Of a stretch of 64,000 nucleotides of DNA, positions 12,909 through 52,532 are shown piece after piece (the stretch's first letter is position 1; every line of letters starts with the position of its first letter). This DNA is from Pseudomonas sp. SCA2728.1_7 (lineage in GTDB: Bacteria > Pseudomonadota > Gammaproteobacteria > Pseudomonadales > Pseudomonadaceae), in assembly GCF_018138145.1 (NCBI RefSeq), contig NZ_CP073104.1, positions 5,089,001-5,153,000 on the forward strand, in the 5' to 3' direction. Made by a program: the position numbers and the translations under genes. The notes under the pieces were generated by a model that was not told where the DNA came from, did no database searches, and worked only from the letters and a program-made list of their open reading frames with translations.

Positions 12909-12965
12909 GGCGCTTTCTTTCGGGTGCCTTTTGCGCCCACTGTCTTTTTTACGGTTGGAACAAAC

Positions 12966-14066
12966 ATGACCAGGCAACAGCAAGTGGTGATTGTCGGTGG
13001 CGGGGTGATTGGCCTGCTGACCGCCTACAATCTCGCCTCCGAAGTACGCAGCGTGGTGCTGCTCGATCGCTCGAACCTCGGCCAGGAATCGTCCTGGGCG
13101 GGCGGCGGTATCGTTTCGCCGCTGTATCCGTGGCGCTATAGCCCGGCAGTCACCGCACTGGCGCACTGGTCGCAGGATTTTTATCCACAGCTCGGCGCAC
13201 GTCTGTTTGCCGACACTGGCGTTGATCCTGAAGTGCACACCACGGGCCTGTACTGGCTGGACCTGGACGATGAAGCCGAAGCGCTGGCCTGGGCCAAGCG
13301 GGAAAATCGCCCGTTGCGGGCTGTGGATATCTCGGCGGCGCATGATGCGGTATCGGTGCTCGGTGGCGGCTTCTCGCGGGCGATCTACATGGCGGATGTC
13401 GCCAACGTACGCAATCCGCGTCTGGTGAAATCACTGAAAGCGGCACTGCTGGCATTGCCGAACGTAACCATTCACGAACAATGCGCAGTCAGCGGGTTTG
13501 TCCGCGAGGGTGAGCAGGTTGTTGGCGTCGAGACGTCGAAGGGTGTGATCAAGGGCGATCAGGTCGTATTGACTGCGGGGGCGTGGAGCGGCGATCTGCT
13601 CAAGACGCTGGATCTGACACTGCCGGTCGAGCCAGTCAAAGGCCAGATGATTCTCTACAAGTGCGCAGCGGATTTTCTGCCGAGCATGGTATTGGCCAAG
13701 GGCCGTTATGCGATCCCGCGCCGAGATGGCCATATTCTGATCGGCAGCACGCTGGAGCACGAAGGCTACGACAAGACCCCAACCGACATTGCACTGGAAA
13801 GCCTCAAGGCTTCGGCAGTGGAGTTATTGCCAGCGTTGGCCGATGCCGAAGTGGTCGGACACTGGGCGGGGTTGCGTCCGGGGTCGCCGGAGGGCATTCC
13901 GTATATTGGCCGGGTGCCGGGGTTCGACGGGTTGTGGTTGAACTGCGGGCATTACCGTAATGGGCTGGTGCTGGCGCCGGCGTCGTGCCAGTTGTTTGCC
14001 GATGTGATGCTGGGAAGGGCGCCGATTATTGATCCGGCGCCGTATGCGCCTGAAGGCCGCATTTAG
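12966..14066 (+). CDS. thiO: Glycine oxidase / FAD-dependent oxidase ThiO
   Basis: A 366-residue DAO-family flavoprotein that oxidises glycine to the iminoglycine (dehydroglycine) needed for the thiazole of thiamin. The N-terminal Rossmann motif VIVGGGVIGLLTAYNLA (residues ~8-24) binds FAD. SSWAGGGIVSPLYPWRY and the C-terminal HYRNGLVLAP are typical of ThiO. Start ATG 12966 is the first codon before the dinucleotide fold. Pseudomonas often keeps thiO next to pilS/pilR; here the IS110 element separates them. Confidence 0.9.
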   Translation: MTRQQQVVIVGGGVIGLLTAYNLASEVRSVVLLDRSNLGQESSWAGGGIVSPLYPWRYSPAVTALAHWSQDFYPQLGARLFADTGVDPEVHTTGLYWLDLDDEAEALAWAKRENRPLRAVDISAAHDAVSVLGGGFSRAIYMADVANVRNPRLVKSLKAALLALPNVTIHEQCAVSGFVREGEQVVGVETSKGVIKGDQVVLTAGAWSGDLLKTLDLTLPVEPVKGQMILYKCAADFLPSMVLAKGRYAIPRRDGHILIGSTLEHEGYDKTPTDIALESLKASAVELLPALADAEVVGHWAGLRPGSPEGIPYIGRVPGFDGLWLNCGHYRNGLVLAPASCQLFADVMLGRAPIIDPAPYAPEGRI

Positions 14067-14094
14067 TCTGATATTTCTCTGTAGCCTGGCAGAT

Positions 14095-14116
14095 CGCTTT
14101 CGCGAGCAGGCTCGCT
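14095..14116 (+). repeat. Left part of a family A REP, interrupted by the IS110 element
   Basis: The sequence CGCTTTCGCGAGCAGGCTCGCT ends abruptly where an intact REP would read CCCACA. Those missing bases follow directly after CT 15290-15291 at the other side of the element. Joining 14116 to 15292 restores the standard REP. Confidence 0.93.
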
Positions 14117-14130
14117 TGTATGGTAGGACT

Positions 14131-14287
14131 TGAAGGGAGGAGGAGGGACAAGGCTCGATTCTGACTGTTAGCGCAGTACAGACCGTGGGAGATTTCACCC
14201 TCCTCCTTTCACCCAAGCGCCGATAAAGAATGCATCTGGCCTAGACCGACGATAGGAACAAGCCTGCGCCTCTGGGTGAACCCTTCA
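14131..14287 (+). ncRNA. Candidate bridge RNA of the IS110 element
   Basis: The segment folds on paper into a closed three-stem structure. An outer stem pairs TGAAGGG (14131-14137) with CCCTTCA (14281-14287). A 10-bp stem (14138-14147 with 14198-14207) closes the first loop, and an ACCCA/GCGC stem (14211-14220 with 14266-14277) closes the second. The first loop carries AGGCTCG (14151-14157), identical to the target bases left of the core, and GTGGGAG (14185-14191), the reverse complement of core CT plus CCCAC. The second loop carries AAAGAAT (14225-14231), 6/7 identical to the element right end ATAGAAT, and ACAAG (14258-14262), complementary to CT plus the left end TGT. This is the guide layout known for IS621. 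Exact RNA ends are inferred. Confidence 0.82.
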
Positions 14288-14318
14288 AGTGTTCAAACCT
14301 TAGCCCGGAGGATTTCTC

Positions 14319-15266
14319 ATGGCAATGCCCGTCGTTACTACTCAGTCGATCATCGGGGTTGATGTCGCCAAGGATGAACTGGTGATTTATTGCACCGAAT
14401 CAGATCAACTCGAGACAATCTCTAACACCAAAGCAGCAATCAAAAAATGGCTCAAAACTGTAGCCAAGCCAGTGGCTATCGCCATCGAAGCCACCAATAT
14501 CTATCACCAGGAATTTGCTGATCTGGCGTATGCCAATGGTTGCGTGATCTATATGGTTGGCGGTTATGAGCTCAGCCATTACCGCAAAGGCGTGAACGTT
14601 CGCGCTAAAACTGATGCGCTGGATGCCCGATTACTGGCCCGTTATCTGACAAACGAAGGGGACCACTTACGCCCTTGGACACCGCCGTCGCCCTTGTATT
14701 GCCGGCTCATCAGTCTTTTCCGGCGCCGTGCGGCTCTGGTCCAGGCTCGTGTCAGCCTCAAGCAGAGTTGGGAGAATGAGCCGTTGCTCAAAACCGCTTT
14801 CAAAAATCAGATAAACGCCATGCAAAGACTGGAAATCCTGCTGGAGAAAACGATCCTGACGCAGATAGACGAAGCTGGTTTAGGCGCTCAGCTCAAGCGT
14901 TGCATGAAGGTAGAAGGCATCGGTACGTTGACCGGCGCCCGCTTGCTCGCATCCTTTCAGCGTGGGGATTTCAGGAATGCCGACGCTTTCATCGCCTTTC
15001 TAGGCCTGGATCTGCGCATATCTGACTCAGGCAAAAAGAAAGGCCGTCGCTGCCTGACCAAACGAGGCGACTCAGAGGCGCGTCGGTTGCTGCACAACGC
15101 TGCAATGGCGGCGAGCCGGACCTCGGCGTGGAAAGGATTTTATGAGGCTTTGAGAGAGCGCGGATTGAGCACTACCCAAGCACTGGTCGCACTAGCCCGC
15201 AAGCTTGCTCGGGTGGTATTTGCTCTGTTGAAAAACCAGAGCGAATACTCACCTAAAGCCGTTTAG
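14319..15266 (+). CDS. IS110-family transposase (DEDD RuvC-like / Tnp_20)
   Basis: A 315-residue recombinase. The N-terminal RuvC-like domain carries the DEDD residues D15 (IIGVDVAKDE), E57 (AIEATN), D99 and D102 (RAKTDALDAR). The C-terminal transposase_20 domain has the helix-hairpin-helix-like KVEGIGTLTGARLLASF (~197-213) and a Ser-containing helix (AAMAASRTSAW, ~261-271) where the family's catalytic serine lies. Ribosome site GGAGG sits 8 bp before ATG 14319. The length is normal with no frameshift, so the protein is probably functional. In this family the enzyme acts with the bridge RNA encoded upstream. Confidence 0.95.
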   Translation: MAMPVVTTQSIIGVDVAKDELVIYCTESDQLETISNTKAAIKKWLKTVAKPVAIAIEATNIYHQEFADLAYANGCVIYMVGGYELSHYRKGVNVRAKTDALDARLLARYLTNEGDHLRPWTPPSPLYCRLISLFRRRAALVQARVSLKQSWENEPLLKTAFKNQINAMQRLEILLEKTILTQIDEAGLGAQLKRCMKVEGIGTLTGARLLASFQRGDFRNADAFIAFLGLDLRISDSGKKKGRRCLTKRGDSEARRLLHNAAMAASRTSAWKGFYEALRERGLSTTQALVALARKLARVVFALLKNQSEYSPKAV

Positions 15267-15289
15267 GGGCTAGGCATGAACCATAGAAT

Positions 15290-15350
15290 CTCCCACATTG
15301 GATTTTGTGAACGACAACGCTCAACTGTGGGAGCGAGCCTGCTCGCGAAG
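15290..15350 (+). repeat. Right part of the interrupted REP plus its inverted partner
   Basis: CTCCCACA (15290-15297) completes the REP started at 14095. After ~27 bp the inverted partner TGTGGGAGCGAGCCTGCTCG follows (15326-15345). The uninterrupted doublet would therefore be arranged with the GCGAGCAGG ends outward, the reverse of most doublets here. The repeat ends 7 bp before the pilR stop codon. Confidence 0.92.
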
Positions 15351-15356
15351 GGGCCC

Positions 15357-16703
15357 TCAATCCAGCCCGAGCTTCTTCAGCCGATAACGCATCGACCGAA
15401 ACGAAAGGCTCAACCGCTGCGCCGCCGCCGTGCGATTCCAGCGCGTTTCCTCCAGCGCCTGCAGGATCAGCTTTCTCTCGACGTTCTCCAGATAATCCTC
15501 AAGATTGTCGATCTGCGTCAGATCGGCAATCCCGCCCTCCGCCGCGCAATTGCCGTCACTCAGGCGCAAGTCTTCGGCCTCAATCGTACGGTTTTCACAC
15601 AAGGTGTGCGCCCGTTCGAGAACGTTCTCCAACTCCCGAACATTTCCCGGAAACCGGTAGTTCTTCAATGCTTCCAGCGCCTGCGGATGTAGTCGTGCTG
15701 GCGGTTGGCCGGTGTCCTTGGCCAGACGCTTGAGCATATTGGCCGCCAGCACTTCAATGTCATCACGCCTTTCGCGCAGTGACGGCACGCGCAGTTCAAT
15801 CACGTTCAAGCGGTAATAAAGGTCCTGACGAAAGCGTTCGGTCGCGACCTCTGCATCAAGATCCTTGTGCGTGGCGCAGAGAATCCGCACATCGACCACG
15901 CTTTCCTGCTGGCCGCCGACACTGCGCACGGCTTTTTCCTGAATCGCCCGCAGCAGTTTGACTTGCATCGACAACGGCAAGTCCGCCACTTCATCGAGAA
16001 ACAGCGTGCCGCCATTGGCCGCCTGAAACAGCCCGGGCTTGTCTGCGAGCGCGCCAGTGAAACTGCCTTTGCGATGACCGAAAAACTCGCTTTCCATCAG
16101 CTCCGACGGGATCGCTCCGCAGTTGACCGGCACAAAGGGTTGGCTGGCGCGTGGCCCTTGTTCATGAATCAGCCGTGCGACCAGTTCCTTGCCGCTGCCC
16201 GATTCGCCGCTGATGTAGACCGGTGCCTGGCTGCGGGCGAGTTTGTCGATTTGCTTGCGCAGACTGCGCATCGGTGGCGAGTCGCCCAGCAAGCGTCGAT
16301 CAATCGATGTAAAGCTGCCGCCTGCCGCCGGCATGCGCAGGGCGGCGCCGACCAGTTCGCGCAGGCGGGTGAGGTCGACCGGTTTGGTCAGGAAGTCGAA
16401 AGCCCCGGCTTTCAAGGCGTTGATCGCAGTTTCCAGACTGCCGTAGGCGGTGATCATCGCCACCGGCAGTTGTGGATAACGTTGCTGAATATGCTGCACC
16501 AACTCCAGCCCTGTACCGTCGGGCAAGCGCATGTCGGTCAGGCACAGGTCGAAGTTCTCGCGGTTCAACAGCGCCTGGGCTTCAGCCAGATTGCGCGCGC
16601 TGTAGGTGTCGAGTTTCATCCGTCCCAGGGTGATTTCCAGGAGTTCGCGGATATCCGGTTCGTCGTCGACGATGAGGATTTTTTGCCGTGGGCTCGTGTT
16701 CAA
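15357..16703 (-). CDS. pilR: Sigma54-dependent response regulator PilR
   Basis: A 448-residue NtrC-family activator. The receiver domain has phospho-acceptor D57 (LCLTDMRLPDG). The AAA+ domain has Walker A GESGSGKE and the sigma54-contact loop in the variant form GSFTGA (not GAFTGA). The C-terminal Fis-type helix-turn-helix is NRTAAAQRLSLSFRSMRYRLKK. The likely start is TTG 16703, overlapping the pilS stop as TTGA and giving a length close to P. aeruginosa PilR; upstream in-frame codons would lie inside pilS. Its expected target is the pilA promoter at 36115. Confidence 0.93.
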   Translation of the reverse strand: MNTSPRQKILIVDDEPDIRELLEITLGRMKLDTYSARNLAEAQALLNRENFDLCLTDMRLPDGTGLELVQHIQQRYPQLPVAMITAYGSLETAINALKAGAFDFLTKPVDLTRLRELVGAALRMPAAGGSFTSIDRRLLGDSPPMRSLRKQIDKLARSQAPVYISGESGSGKELVARLIHEQGPRASQPFVPVNCGAIPSELMESEFFGHRKGSFTGALADKPGLFQAANGGTLFLDEVADLPLSMQVKLLRAIQEKAVRSVGGQQESVVDVRILCATHKDLDAEVATERFRQDLYYRLNVIELRVPSLRERRDDIEVLAANMLKRLAKDTGQPPARLHPQALEALKNYRFPGNVRELENVLERAHTLCENRTIEAEDLRLSDGNCAAEGGIADLTQIDNLEDYLENVERKLILQALEETRWNRTAAAQRLSLSFRSMRYRLKKLGLD

Positions 16704-18289
16704 CTTTGTTTCCGTCCGTGAGCAAAGGTGATGCGAAAGCAGCCGCCGCCTTGGCGTGATTGAAAGTCTAGGCGCGCTTGGTTGCTTTCGCACAGCTCAC
16801 GGGACAGATAAAGCCCAAGGCCGGTGCCCTGGCTGCTGGTGGTGAAGAACGGTTCGAATAGATGTGTCTGTTCATCGGCTGGTACGCCGGGGCCGTTGTC
16901 CTGCACTTCGAGCACCGCCAATTGGCTGTCGGGATCGCTGAACAGGGCCAGCCAGACTTCGGCTTGATCATGCAGCAGGGCGCTGTGGCGCCAGCCGTTG
17001 CGTAACAGATTATCGAGAATTTGCGTGAGCTGGTTGGGGTCCATCAGCGTGGTGAAATCCCCCGAATTGATTCGCAGATGAATCTGCTGGCGCTCGCTGG
17101 CTTGTTCGCGGCTTTCGGCGACGAAGTTTTCCAGCCACGGCTTGAGATCCAGCCGTTGTGGCGCGCTCTGCTGGCGGCGGGACAGTTGCAGGACGTTTTC
17201 GATGACTCGGTTCATGCGCTGGGAGTGGTCTTGAATAATCTGCGTCAGACGCCGATCGGCGCTGTCGAGTTCCTCGGATTCAGCCAATAGCTGCGCGGCG
17301 TGACTGATGGCACCCAGCGGATTGCGGATCTCGTGGGAGATCCCGGCGGTCAAGCGCCCAAGTGCGGCAAGTTTCAATTGCTGAGCTTGTTGGGCGATCT
17401 GCGCCAGGTCTTCGAGAAATACCAGGGTTTGCTGGTTGGGGCTCTGTTCGAGGGCGATGAAGCTCGGTTGCAGTTCCAGGCCATTACCGGGGATTTTCAG
17501 GCTCTGCGGGCGCAGGGTCGGGTTGTTCATCCACAGTTGCAAGCGATCGACCAGCGCGGTGGAGTAATCATCGATCAAATGCCCCTGAAGATGCGATTGC
17601 GCGAGCAGGGTTTGCGCGCTGTGGTTGGCCAGTTGCACCCGACGCTCCTCGTCGAGGACCAGAATGCCGGTGCGCATGCGTTGCAGGATCAGCGCATTGA
17701 GGGCTTCGAGGCTGACCACTTCGCTGGCGCGTTGCTCGGCCAGTGTTTCGCTGACTTCGAGGCGCCGAATCAACCCCTGCACCAGCAACGATGCGGCAAA
17801 ACACAGGGCGCCGAGAGTGCCGGCTTGCAGGTATTCATTGGCGCTGAGGGGGGGGTTGAAACCCAGCAGGAAACTCGAGCCGACGATGCCCAGCGCACCG
17901 ATGGCGGCAATCAACAGGCCGATGCGTCGCCGTAGCAAAGTGTTGCTGATCGCCACCGAGACAATCAGCAGATTGCCCAGCGCACTGCCGACGCCGCCCG
18001 CCGCAAAGAACAGAACGCATAAAAGCAGGACATCAACGAGGGCCAGACTGAACAGTTGCGCCGGCCGTCGGGTGTTCTCGAGGAATACCACCAACAGAAT
18101 GTTGAGAATCAGGTACAGCCAACTGCCGCCGCGCAGCAATTCATCGTTGGCCGACGTCAGCAGGCGGTTGTCCATGTTGCTGGATATCAGCAGCACCAGA
18201 GTGATGCCGACACTTAAACGGTAGAGATGATAAAGGCGCAGCAGGCGCTGCGCCTGTTTGCTGTCGGCGCTGGTGGCCTCAGCGATCAC
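16700..18289 (-). CDS. pilS: Sensor histidine kinase PilS
   Basis: A membrane kinase of about 529 residues. Six hydrophobic segments in the first ~190 residues are followed by a PAS-like region, the HisKA box GRLTAGISHEIRNPLGAISH with the phospho-His, and HATPase motifs (DNLLRNGWRH; DNGPGVP; GTGLGLYLS). In P. aeruginosa PilS senses PilA in the inner membrane and controls PilR. Start GTG 18289 (MIAEATSADSKQ) gives the usual ~530 residues. A TTG at 18310 would add 7 residues. Either overlaps the small gene upstream. Confidence 0.92.
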   Translation of the reverse strand: MIAEATSADSKQAQRLLRLYHLYRLSVGITLVLLISSNMDNRLLTSANDELLRGGSWLYLILNILLVVFLENTRRPAQLFSLALVDVLLLCVLFFAAGGVGSALGNLLIVSVAISNTLLRRRIGLLIAAIGALGIVGSSFLLGFNPPLSANEYLQAGTLGALCFAASLLVQGLIRRLEVSETLAEQRASEVVSLEALNALILQRMRTGILVLDEERRVQLANHSAQTLLAQSHLQGHLIDDYSTALVDRLQLWMNNPTLRPQSLKIPGNGLELQPSFIALEQSPNQQTLVFLEDLAQIAQQAQQLKLAALGRLTAGISHEIRNPLGAISHAAQLLAESEELDSADRRLTQIIQDHSQRMNRVIENVLQLSRRQQSAPQRLDLKPWLENFVAESREQASERQQIHLRINSGDFTTLMDPNQLTQILDNLLRNGWRHSALLHDQAEVWLALFSDPDSQLAVLEVQDNGPGVPADEQTHLFEPFFTTSSQGTGLGLYLSRELCESNQARLDFQSRQGGGCFRITFAHGRKQS

Positions 18290-24489: not shown

Positions 24490-24565
24490 TCCGTGATAGC
24501 TCAGTCGGTAGAGCAAATGACTGTTAATCATTGGGTCCCAGGTTCGAGTCCTGGTCACGGAGCCA
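24490..24565 (+). tRNA. tRNA-Asn (GUU)
   Basis: A 76-nt cloverleaf with acceptor TCCGTGA/TCACGGA, anticodon GTT in CTGTTAATC, T loop GGTTCGAGTCC, and encoded CCA. Confidence 0.98.
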
Positions 24566-24574
24566 ATTTCAAGC

Positions 24575-24651
24575 CGGGGTATAGCGCAGTCCGGTAGCGC
24601 GCCTGCTTTGGGAGCAGGATGTCAGGAGTTCGAATCCCCTTACCCCGACCA
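24575..24651 (+). tRNA. tRNA-Pro (UGG), copy 1
   Basis: A 77-nt cloverleaf with acceptor CGGGGTA/TACCCCG, anticodon TGG in CTTTGGGAG, T loop AGTTCGAATCC and encoded CCA. It is identical to the copy at 24830. Confidence 0.98.
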
Positions 24652-24656
24652 TTTTT

Positions 24657-24732
24657 GGGTCGTTAGCTCAGTTGGTAGAGCAGTTGGCTTTTAACCAATT
24701 GGTCGTAGGTTCGAATCCCACACGACCCACCA
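24657..24732 (+). tRNA. tRNA-Lys (UUU)
   Basis: A 76-nt cloverleaf with acceptor GGGTCGT/ACGACCC, anticodon TTT in GCTTTTAAC, T loop GGTTCGAATCC and encoded CCA. Confidence 0.98.
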
Positions 24733-24798
24733 TTTTTGAAACCAGTTAACGCTGGGATCGAATCTTAAGATCAGAGGCCAAAAGCGCTGATCGAAGAA

Positions 24799-24827
24799 GG
24801 CGATCTTTGAAAGGTCGCCTTTTTTTT
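24799..24827 (+). terminator. Terminator between tRNA-Lys and the second tRNA-Pro
   Basis: GGCGATCTT-TGA-AAGGTCGCC followed by seven T. It would end the Asn-Pro-Lys transcript before the second tRNA-Pro, which begins 3 bp after the T run. Confidence 0.8.
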
Positions 24828-24829
24828 AC

Positions 24830-24906
24830 CGGGGTATAGCGCAGTCCGGTAGCGCGCCTGCTTTGGGAGCAGGATGTCAGGAGTTCGAATCCCCTTACCC
24901 CGACCA
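24830..24906 (+). tRNA. tRNA-Pro (UGG), copy 2
   Basis: All 77 nt are identical to the copy at 24575-24651, with CCA encoded. A terminator hairpin lies directly upstream, so it depends on read-through or an unseen promoter. Confidence 0.98.
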
Positions 24907-51798: not shown

Positions 51799-51965
51799 GG
51801 GATGCACTGTTTGAAGGAATGTTCGGCCATACCAAAGAATGACCGCATGATGGGCGCAGATTCTAGCATTTAGTCGAGGGATGGTGTAGGACACGGCCGA
51901 TTTGAGCTGCAAGCCGCAGGCTACAGGCATCGCGCGCGATAAAAATGGGGGATTTTGCAGCGGAG

Positions 51966-52335
51966 GAGAAACTACAAGGGGAGCCGAAGCTCCCCAAGAA
52001 GTAGTTGCGTGCTCTTTTTATTATTGATTCGGGCTTCTTGTTTTTGTTGAGTGCCCTCGCCACGAAGTGTTTCCTTCGTGACCCTCCCAATCGGGAGCCA
52101 AGAGCAAACGGATTGCTTTGGTCGCTGAATTGCAGTGATCTCTCGATCCAACCAGTACAGGCTCTGTCTTAGGACAGTTTTTGTTGTTCTCGGCCTGGTC
52201 GTGGGGCAAGCCCCAAATACAACGCCTCTCCAAAAGAATCAGTTAGCTGCGCCTCTCGCCGTCTTGTTTTTATTGTGCGTGAGTCGATTCGTCTTATTTT
52301 TATTGTCTTGTGCATTGCTTGTTATTGTTCTTGTA
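51966..52335 (-). ncRNA. crcZ: Carbon catabolite repression sRNA CrcZ
   Basis: This lies between cbrB and pcnB on the reverse strand, the known place of crcZ. Transcription would start ~12 nt after a sigma54 promoter (52346-52361) and end at hairpin GGGGAGC-TTCG-GCTCCCC (51978-51995) inside an outer AACTAC/GTAGTT stem. Six A-rich motifs of the Hfq/Crc type occur on the transcript, at plus-strand positions 52318-52334, 52293-52309, 52261-52277, 52176-52191, 52034-52051 and 52012-52027 (for example AACAACAAAAAC and AATAATAAAAA). CrcZ titrates Hfq/Crc and relieves catabolite repression. The length of ~370 nt is an estimate. Confidence 0.88.
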
Positions 52336-52420: not shown

Positions 52421-52458
52421 AAAAAAAGCCGGGGTTTCGTTACCGATAACCCCGGCTT
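52421..52458 (-). terminator. Terminator after cbrB
   Basis: On the reverse strand AAGCCGGGGTT ... AACCCCGGCTT followed by TTTTT; it isolates crcZ from cbrB transcription. Confidence 0.92.
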
Positions 52459-52532
52459 CTGTTACGTGAATCGACTGCGGTAACAGTTTTTTCACACCTT
52501 CAAGCGTTACCCGCACACTCGACAGATAACGT

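Follow-up and report, generated by a model that had tools for sequence, protein, structure and literature searches.

The window analysed here, a stretch of 64,000 nucleotides of the chromosome of Pseudomonas sp. SCA2728.1_7 (NZ_CP073104.1; positions below are counted from its first letter), raises the question of how an insertion sequence came to lie inside a REP, and whether the non-coding left end of this element could supply the guide. The IS110 element is 1,173 bp long (14117-15289, coordinates checked) and interrupts a REP between an amine/glycine-oxidase-like gene upstream (12924-14066) and a response-regulator-like gene downstream on the opposite strand (15357-16793), both named by eye. 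The element and the two halves of its target are made up as follows.

14108..14114, + strand: left target half in the REP, AGGCTCG (so in four of the five copies in this genome; AAGCTCG in the fifth)
14115..14116, + strand: left core CT (sequence check)
14117..14318, + strand: left non-coding end of the IS110 element, 202 nt (identical letter for letter in all five copies of this genome)
14307..14311, + strand: GGAGG, likely ribosome-binding site of the transposase (by eye)
14319..15266, + strand: IS110 recombinase, 315 aa, PF01548 and PF02371 (domain search)
15283..15289, + strand: right end ATAGAAT, the left donor half (sequence check, donor comparison)
15290..15291, + strand: right core CT (sequence check)
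15292..15296, + strand: right target half in the REP, CCCAC (sequence check, own-genome copies)

The recombinase carries the two domains listed (PF01548, 1e-20; PF02371, 1.6e-18), reaches 185 bits with the NCBIfam model NF033542 (IS110 family RNA-guided transposase) against a cut-off of 140, and has IS621 (8wt6, E 2e-21) and ISCro4 as its nearest solved chains. Its residues D15, E57, D99, D102 and S237 fall in motifs aligned with IS621, and S237 presumably corresponds to IS621 S241, given a two-residue offset in chain numbering. The layout is that of the IS110 group, with a left end of 202 nt and a right end of 23 nt; the subterminal ATA (15283-15285) and TAT (14119-14121), a short repeat described as a feature of this group (PMC11208160), flank the donor inside a 6-bp inverted match, TATGGT. 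Membership of the IS1111 group, characterised by a long right end and subterminal inverted repeats of 7-17 bp, was considered and rejected, the right end being so short here and the longest exact inverted match within the outer 50 bases of both ends measuring 6 bp.

According to the first-pass annotation of this DNA, the left end holds four short guides arranged as in the bridge RNA of IS621. All four were found where it had placed them, and their order and strands were confirmed.

14151..14157, + strand: left target guide AGGCTCG (identical to 14108-14114; covaries with the target)
14185..14191, + strand: right target guide GTGGGAG (reverse complement of core CT plus CCCAC, 15290-15296)
14192..14193, + strand: handshake bases AT (complementary to the donor bases T and A left of the core)
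14225..14231, + strand: left donor guide AAAGAAT (6/7 to ATAGAAT, 15283-15289)
14258..14262, + strand: right donor guide ACAAG (complementary to CT plus TGT, 14115-14119)

The target and donor loops therefore contain the guides in the fixed order and on the fixed strands of an IS621-type bridge RNA. AGGCTCG, GTGGGAG and AAAGAAT occur once each in the left end, and ACAAG has another occurrence at 14148, which is not in the donor loop. CC follows the right donor guide; its first base can pair with the G that lies left of the core in the target, whereas its second base faces C and cannot pair; the role of such handshake bases has been described for IS621 (PMC11208158). The same annotation had judged two target matches to be improbable by chance, which was upheld by a count over both strands of the window with 14090-15320 excluded: among 6,603 other CT sites, the left 7-mer is present in the RNA segment for 72, the right 7-mer for 73 and both for 8, compared with 0.8 expected under independence, and these eight double matches are all REPs reading GCAGGCTCGCTCCCACA. 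A second REP type, AGGCTCACTCCTAC, forms inverted pairs about 74 nt apart between 37434 and 58205 of the window (37434/37508, 47746/47820, 49809/49882 and 58118/58192); it is two mismatches away from the guides of the element, and none of the five own copies lies inside it.

The genome contains 652 exact copies of the target 14-mer (325 forward, 327 reverse; reversed control pattern, 0), and with REPs as common as this, the REP-like stretches of the leader could be regarded as captured or convergent REP fragments deprived of any guiding function. Yet they are two separate short stretches lying on opposite strands in the IS621 order, and relatives inserted outside REPs carry other matching sequences at these places (L080 on both sides, L189 and L192, and L191 on the right only). 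Already contradicted by the covariation detailed below, a fragment origin is extremely improbable in our view.

The genome contains five copies of the element, three of them 100% and two 98% identical in DNA, and each of the five interrupts a REP at the same CT; a search with the left end returned these five copies and one further match at E 0.07. One copy (L005) sits at a REP with one mismatch, as might be the case if the bridge RNA were real and the element had ceased to be mobile in this genome; however, with copies 98-100% identical, frames all open and left ends identical, such a loss of mobility is considered unlikely. The uninterrupted state of the site was seen in a relative (genome G019, L288; flanking gene 90% identical), in which an intact REP, GCAAGCCCGCTCCCACA, occupies the corresponding intergenic position. 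This REP reads CGCGGGCAAGCCCGCTCCCACAGG without interruption, whereas the window has the element between both halves and CT at each end, a comparison that agrees with insertion CT for CT; since the G019 REP is two bases off the left guide of the element, it documents the location but not the exact sequence of the original site. At the sites of three further relatives are found a shortened REP-like stretch (L290), another repeat (L289) and almost no spacer (L292).

If the loops guide insertion, they should differ where the target differs, and this was assessed on a selection of relatives, whose loci came from 30 places and then from 80 stretches around chosen listed places. After 14 partial loci had been dropped, 178 full-length loci were kept, own copies and between-collection duplicates included, and both ends were found in 164 of them; the 14 left out had ends that were missed by the patterns or that contained N (among them L176 and all six of G080). 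CT stands at both ends in 163 of the 164 elements, with CT and TT in the remaining one, and deduplication gave 140 elements with 56 distinct left ends. As regards distribution, of 298 Pseudomonas genomes sampled, 46 have a transposase match at E <= 1e-30, including a few distant ones. No relative was detected at E <= 1e-40 in a collection of 72,556 plasmid records, which would fit a clade tied to REPs on chromosomes. Left-end matches (E <= 1e-5) are present in 55 of the same 298 genomes, and the left end alone in 13. Orphan or trans-acting bridge RNAs were considered on this account and the idea was dropped: most left-end-only matches lie at contig ends, where the draft breaks at the element, and in G046 two of three copies have runs of N inside and no right end was found for the third. 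This second look covered the left-end-only genomes other than G065, G032 and G220, which have no transposase match at all.

One case that the first-pass annotation had named as refuting its reading, that of changed sites with unchanged loops, is contradicted on the left side and, in part, on the right. In a blind search for the best match of 8 bases in the leader, left targets paired with their own leader averaged 6.50, compared with 5.73 when shuffled (56 left ends), and none of 20,000 shuffles was as good (largest, 6.07). When the guide was anchored, as could be done for 52 of the 56 left ends, its own target matched at 5.96 of 7 bases versus 4.49 for shuffled ones, again with 0/20,000 as good (largest, 4.96); the relatives share descent, so that these shuffle counts are not strict probabilities. 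The 52 anchored left ends match at 7/7 in 25 cases, at 6/7 in 16, at 5/7 in 5 and at 4 or fewer in 6, and the left guide equals the target over 7 bases in 69 of the 136 anchored distinct elements (140 in total, 4 without anchor). For the right target, the blind test over 6 bases is weak (5.12 own, 5.02 shuffled, p 0.018), CCCAC being the right target of almost every Pseudomonas copy. Where this target is CCTAC (n=12), the guide has become GTAGGAG in seven elements (five G094 copies, L186 and L190), and the other five keep GTGGGAG, at the cost of one mismatch (L162 and four G477 copies).

Individual elements show the same correspondence. Left guides matched to changed targets read AAGCCGG in L019, AAGCCAG in L073 and CAAGCACG in L173. 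In L080, from a Woeseiaceae MAG and with 47% protein identity, the left side is CGGTCCG and the right target TTATTC meets the guide GAATAAAG at 8/8, while right targets CGGCTC in L191, CATCGC in L192 and CACATG in L175 have the guides GAGCCGAG (8/8, with a left side that fails to match), TCGATGAG (7/8) and CACGTGAG (7/8), respectively. L189 also has the right target CATCGC, with one mismatch more than L192 at the place of the guide, the blind scan putting its right guide in the donor-loop stretch; over CT plus five bases, L189 and L192 match at 6/7 and 7/7 on the right, and both match at 8/8 on the left. These two elements come from one genome (G621), and their left targets lie one base apart within 8, with the matching guides TTCCCTGG and TTCCTTGG; the pair may represent a recent natural retargeting. 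Genome G080 has six separate insertions, recognisable by their differing left flanks, in which the left guide equals the target CAAGCCGCC at 9/9; their right ends lie about 198 nt after the stop and read ATAGAAT CT CCCAC, and they are outside all counts of 164, 140 and 56. These copies (L032, L152-L156) have C in place of G at the target position left of the core, and G in place of C as the handshake base that follows the right donor guide, so that the pair is kept; their long right end holds a REP-like stretch of its own.

Imperfect sites are common among the copies. Five elements of the L024/L026 type carry the guide CAGTTCG at AAGCTCG, AAGCCCG or AGGCTCG, and seven of the L033 type carry AGACTCG at AGGCTCG, none of them with an exact match, which would fit mismatch tolerance or drift. 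L017 (the same as L072 of another collection) lies beside a REP on its left rather than inside one; it is flanked by a repeat of CCCACATTTGGTAG instead of two REP halves and could be read as an off-target or rearranged insertion. L024 and L128 (genome G066, C45) are two copies of a relative arranged head to tail, whose transposase starts lie about 1.35 kb apart. On the donor side, the right end ATAGAAT accompanies guides ending in GAAT in 160 of 164 elements, and no guide was caught in three by a pattern that covers the endings GAAT and GGAT. Both donor departures found are followed by their guides, ATAGGAT with AAGGGAT in L191 and ATAGAGC with TAGGAGC in L176, which is outside the 164 and was read separately.

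The guides would be presented by a folded RNA, for which the first-pass annotation had proposed an outer stem enclosing two stem-closed loops. This architecture was recovered by folding, with an outer stem slightly longer than proposed.

14128..14290, + strand: predicted bridge RNA, ends approximate (fold, z -4.86)
14128..14137, + strand: outer closing stem, 5' strand (predicted from the fold)
14138..14147, + strand: target-loop stem, 5' strand, pairing with 14198-14207 (fold)
14198..14207, + strand: target-loop stem, 3' strand (fold)
14208..14215, + strand: donor-loop stem, 5' strand, pairing with 14273-14280 (fold; inner GCGC 14217-14220 with 14266-14269)
14281..14290, + strand: outer closing stem, 3' strand (predicted from the fold)

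The fold of 14127-14291, made of the outer stem, the target loop and the donor loop, has an energy of -68 kcal/mol, and none of 200 shuffles (-47.8 +/- 4.2) was as stable; taken alone, the donor module is no more stable than its shuffles (z -0.15). No 5' hairpin precedes the target loop in the fold of the window left end. With the RNA ending just after the stem, the outer stem is predicted at a value of at least 0.99 in all 40 Pseudomonas leaders with the motif, a set that excludes the distant L184 and L185 as well as L029, which has no motif. Addition of 60 nt of coding region leaves it above 0.5 in 33 of 42 leaders, L184 and L185 now included; these two are among the nine at or below 0.5, and neither formed the outer stem in the shorter RNA. 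For L001 with the full 5' strand and the coding region, the outer stem remains near 1.0. The tested outer pairs did not exceed 0.08 when six distant leaders, L184 and L185 were folded singly, and the fold of L186 closes the RNA by eye with the tested bases misplaced. As to L029 (genome G091), its left end is 125 nt long and has lost the whole donor loop, apparently through a deletion between two CCCCTTC repeats (in the target-loop stem and the outer stem); what remains is a natural bridge RNA with the target loop only, followed by a transposase frame that has no stops. The element has no Rfam match at the gathering score; the six matches elsewhere in the window are the CrcZ and P36 sRNAs (51941-52334 and 52430-52490, minus strand) and four tRNA genes (24490-24903, plus strand).

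A structured leader of this kind might mainly regulate translation of the transposase, the choice of REPs being left to the protein, as the 5'-UTR of ISPpu9 is reported to fold over the ribosome site, with an antisense RNA controlling it (PMC8450116). The behaviour of the leader once coding sequence is included lends this some weight, since an RNA starting 4 nt later and running into the coding region (14131-14345) adopts a different minimum-energy fold (z -1.60) unlike the bridge shape, in line with the nine of 42 leaders whose outer stem is lowered. Translation control, however, does not need a left guide that changes with the target, and such change is seen across species; nor would it account for a second loop that matches the element's own ends and that changes in both donor departures. 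Regulation as the main role of the leader is thus very unlikely, and we retain the bridge RNA as the reading of the left end.

Conservation of the stems, also anticipated in the first-pass annotation, holds for some helices and not for others. Covariation is seen in the inner hairpin of the target loop, where C-G replaces a U-A pair in 3 of 23 leaders and several pairs change in a second set, and pairs of the donor loop and of the 5' hairpin covary in distant relatives; the long target-loop stem pairs were left out, as the alignment sets two Pseudomonas groups out of register. Inside Pseudomonas, covariation of the outer stem is unsupported (196 of 500 shuffles as good), and the stem is uninformative there because seven of its nine pairs never vary; the two pairs at its centre are each disrupted in 9 of 23 leaders. 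In 13 distant relatives (33-54% protein identity), the outer stem obtained a covariation score of 0.192 (1/500 shuffles), and the share of cells paired (0/500) and the cells changed on both sides (2/500) point in the same direction, whereas the number of changed pairs (133/500) and of pair types (81/500) gave no support. In the same relatives, a competing 5' hairpin scored 0.449, with 0/500 for cells paired, both-side changes and score, 294/500 for changed pairs and 23/500 for pair types. For both helices, shifting the partners by 1-3 columns lowers the covariation scores.

In these distant relatives, one strand can pair either with its partner in the 5' hairpin or with the 3' strand, and because this strand has two conserved partners, an exchange is suggested. 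It is conceivable, as a conjecture from aligned sequences to which we assign a rather low likelihood, that bridge RNAs of this IS110 subfamily hold a strand-exchange switch between the 5' hairpin (an open, IS621-like form) and the strand beyond the donor loop, by the ribosome site of the transposase (a closed three-way junction). Such a switch would decide between guide RNA and transposase mRNA, and the Pseudomonas REP clade would have lost the hairpin half and be locked in the closed form.

With respect to expression, no promoter-like site was detected in the integrated state by a standard scan of 14000-15400. Joining of the two ends in a circle would bring together the following hexamers.

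14119..14124, + strand: predicted -10 hexamer TATGGT, its promoter completed only on end joining (promoter comparison)
15271..15276, + strand: right-end TAGGCA, predicted -35 hexamer (spaced 17 nt from TATGGT once circular)

The RNA start predicted from this arrangement lies near 14131. Across 56 distinct elements, the circle improves on the best -35 match (spacers of 16-18) of the integrated form in 54 and equals it in two (means of 3.46 in the circle and 1.59 integrated, out of 6), the junction promoter of the window copy having only 4/6 matches in its -35. Promoters made by circularisation have been reported for IS621 (PMC11208160) and ISEc21 (PMC11187229), and one is predicted to form in the element of the window.

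Taken together, the left non-coding end very probably gives rise to a bridge RNA whose first loop specifies both halves of the REP and whose second loop specifies the ends of the element, the recombinase joining the circle to matching REPs. What is observed is the set of four matches with their order and strands, the five copies at the same CT, the uninterrupted REP in a relative, and a left guide that changes with its target. By analogy with IS621 and ISEc21, the element would be excised in circular form, the junction of its ends would create a promoter from which the left end is transcribed, and the recombinase would bind the resulting RNA. The first loop would then read both REP halves around the insertion point and the second the two element ends, and the DEDD/serine active site would exchange strands CT for CT. 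The outer stem would close the RNA of this clade, the fold predicting no separate 5' hairpin of the IS621 kind.

The element can be situated among known systems. Its transposase is 63% (P0215) and 57% (P0218, 275 aa) identical to proteins named ISPpu10, and this homology, together with insertion into a REP, places it in the ISPpu10 clade. All seven KT2440 copies of ISPpu10 are reported to lie in REPs, and REP insertion of both ISPpu10 and ISPpu9 was described in 2006 (PMC1525189). ISPpu10, from Pseudomonas putida, is also one of six elements with a drawn predicted bridge RNA in Durrant et al. 2024 (PMC11208160); it differs from the present element in sequence, and the prediction is named in the legend of Extended Data Fig. 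10. With IS621, whose recombinase is homologous, the element shares the guide order (left target, right target, left donor, right donor), the CT core, the location of the RNA in the left end and the REP target, as well as, by eye in the IS621 left end L193, the left end TGTAT and a CAAG donor guide. The same comparison by eye shows that L193 has a separate 5' hairpin and a donor-loop stem running straight into the ATG, with no 3' segment, consistent with the published RNA of 177 nt that starts with a 5' stem-loop and ends with the donor loop (Durrant 2024, PMC11208160; Hiraizumi 2024, PMC11208158). The modelled window RNA lacks the hairpin and has instead a 10-bp outer stem capable of closing the molecule, so that the early suspicion of an outer stem unlike that of IS621 proved right. 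The seekRNA of ISEc21 (Siddiquee 2024, PMC11187229) is likewise an upstream non-coding RNA of an IS110-type element with a bottom- before a top-strand match and a joined-end promoter; it differs by its target, reported to lie in IS3-family transposase genes and not in REPs, and by a 74-nt short RNA described as more abundant. ISPpu9 shares the IS110 family, the REP location and a structured 5'-UTR, and differs by antisense and sense sRNAs acting on translation and by an AG repeat at the site (PMC8450116), a likeness drawn from its published description.

By the sequence features tested, the window RNA thus appears to work like the IS621 bridge RNA, except for the 5' hairpin. The element is a member of the IS110 group near ISPpu10, a REP-targeting bridge-RNA relative and not a new kind of system. 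Titles and abstract openings searched, in which subscription papers are mostly outside coverage, yielded none naming the RNA of this clade; as the ISPpu10 bridge RNA had already been predicted and REP insertion already reported, the novelty is modest and probably lies in a shape variant of the bridge RNA. For the Pseudomonas clade, the bridge-RNA rule explains REP targeting, as shown computationally. The relatives also provide a natural series of guides matched to different targets, which is useful for learning how mismatches are tolerated and for choosing recombinases with short proteins of about 315 aa. Finally, should the closed shape of the RNA prove real, it would point to the 5' hairpin of IS621 being dispensable and would offer an alternative scaffold.
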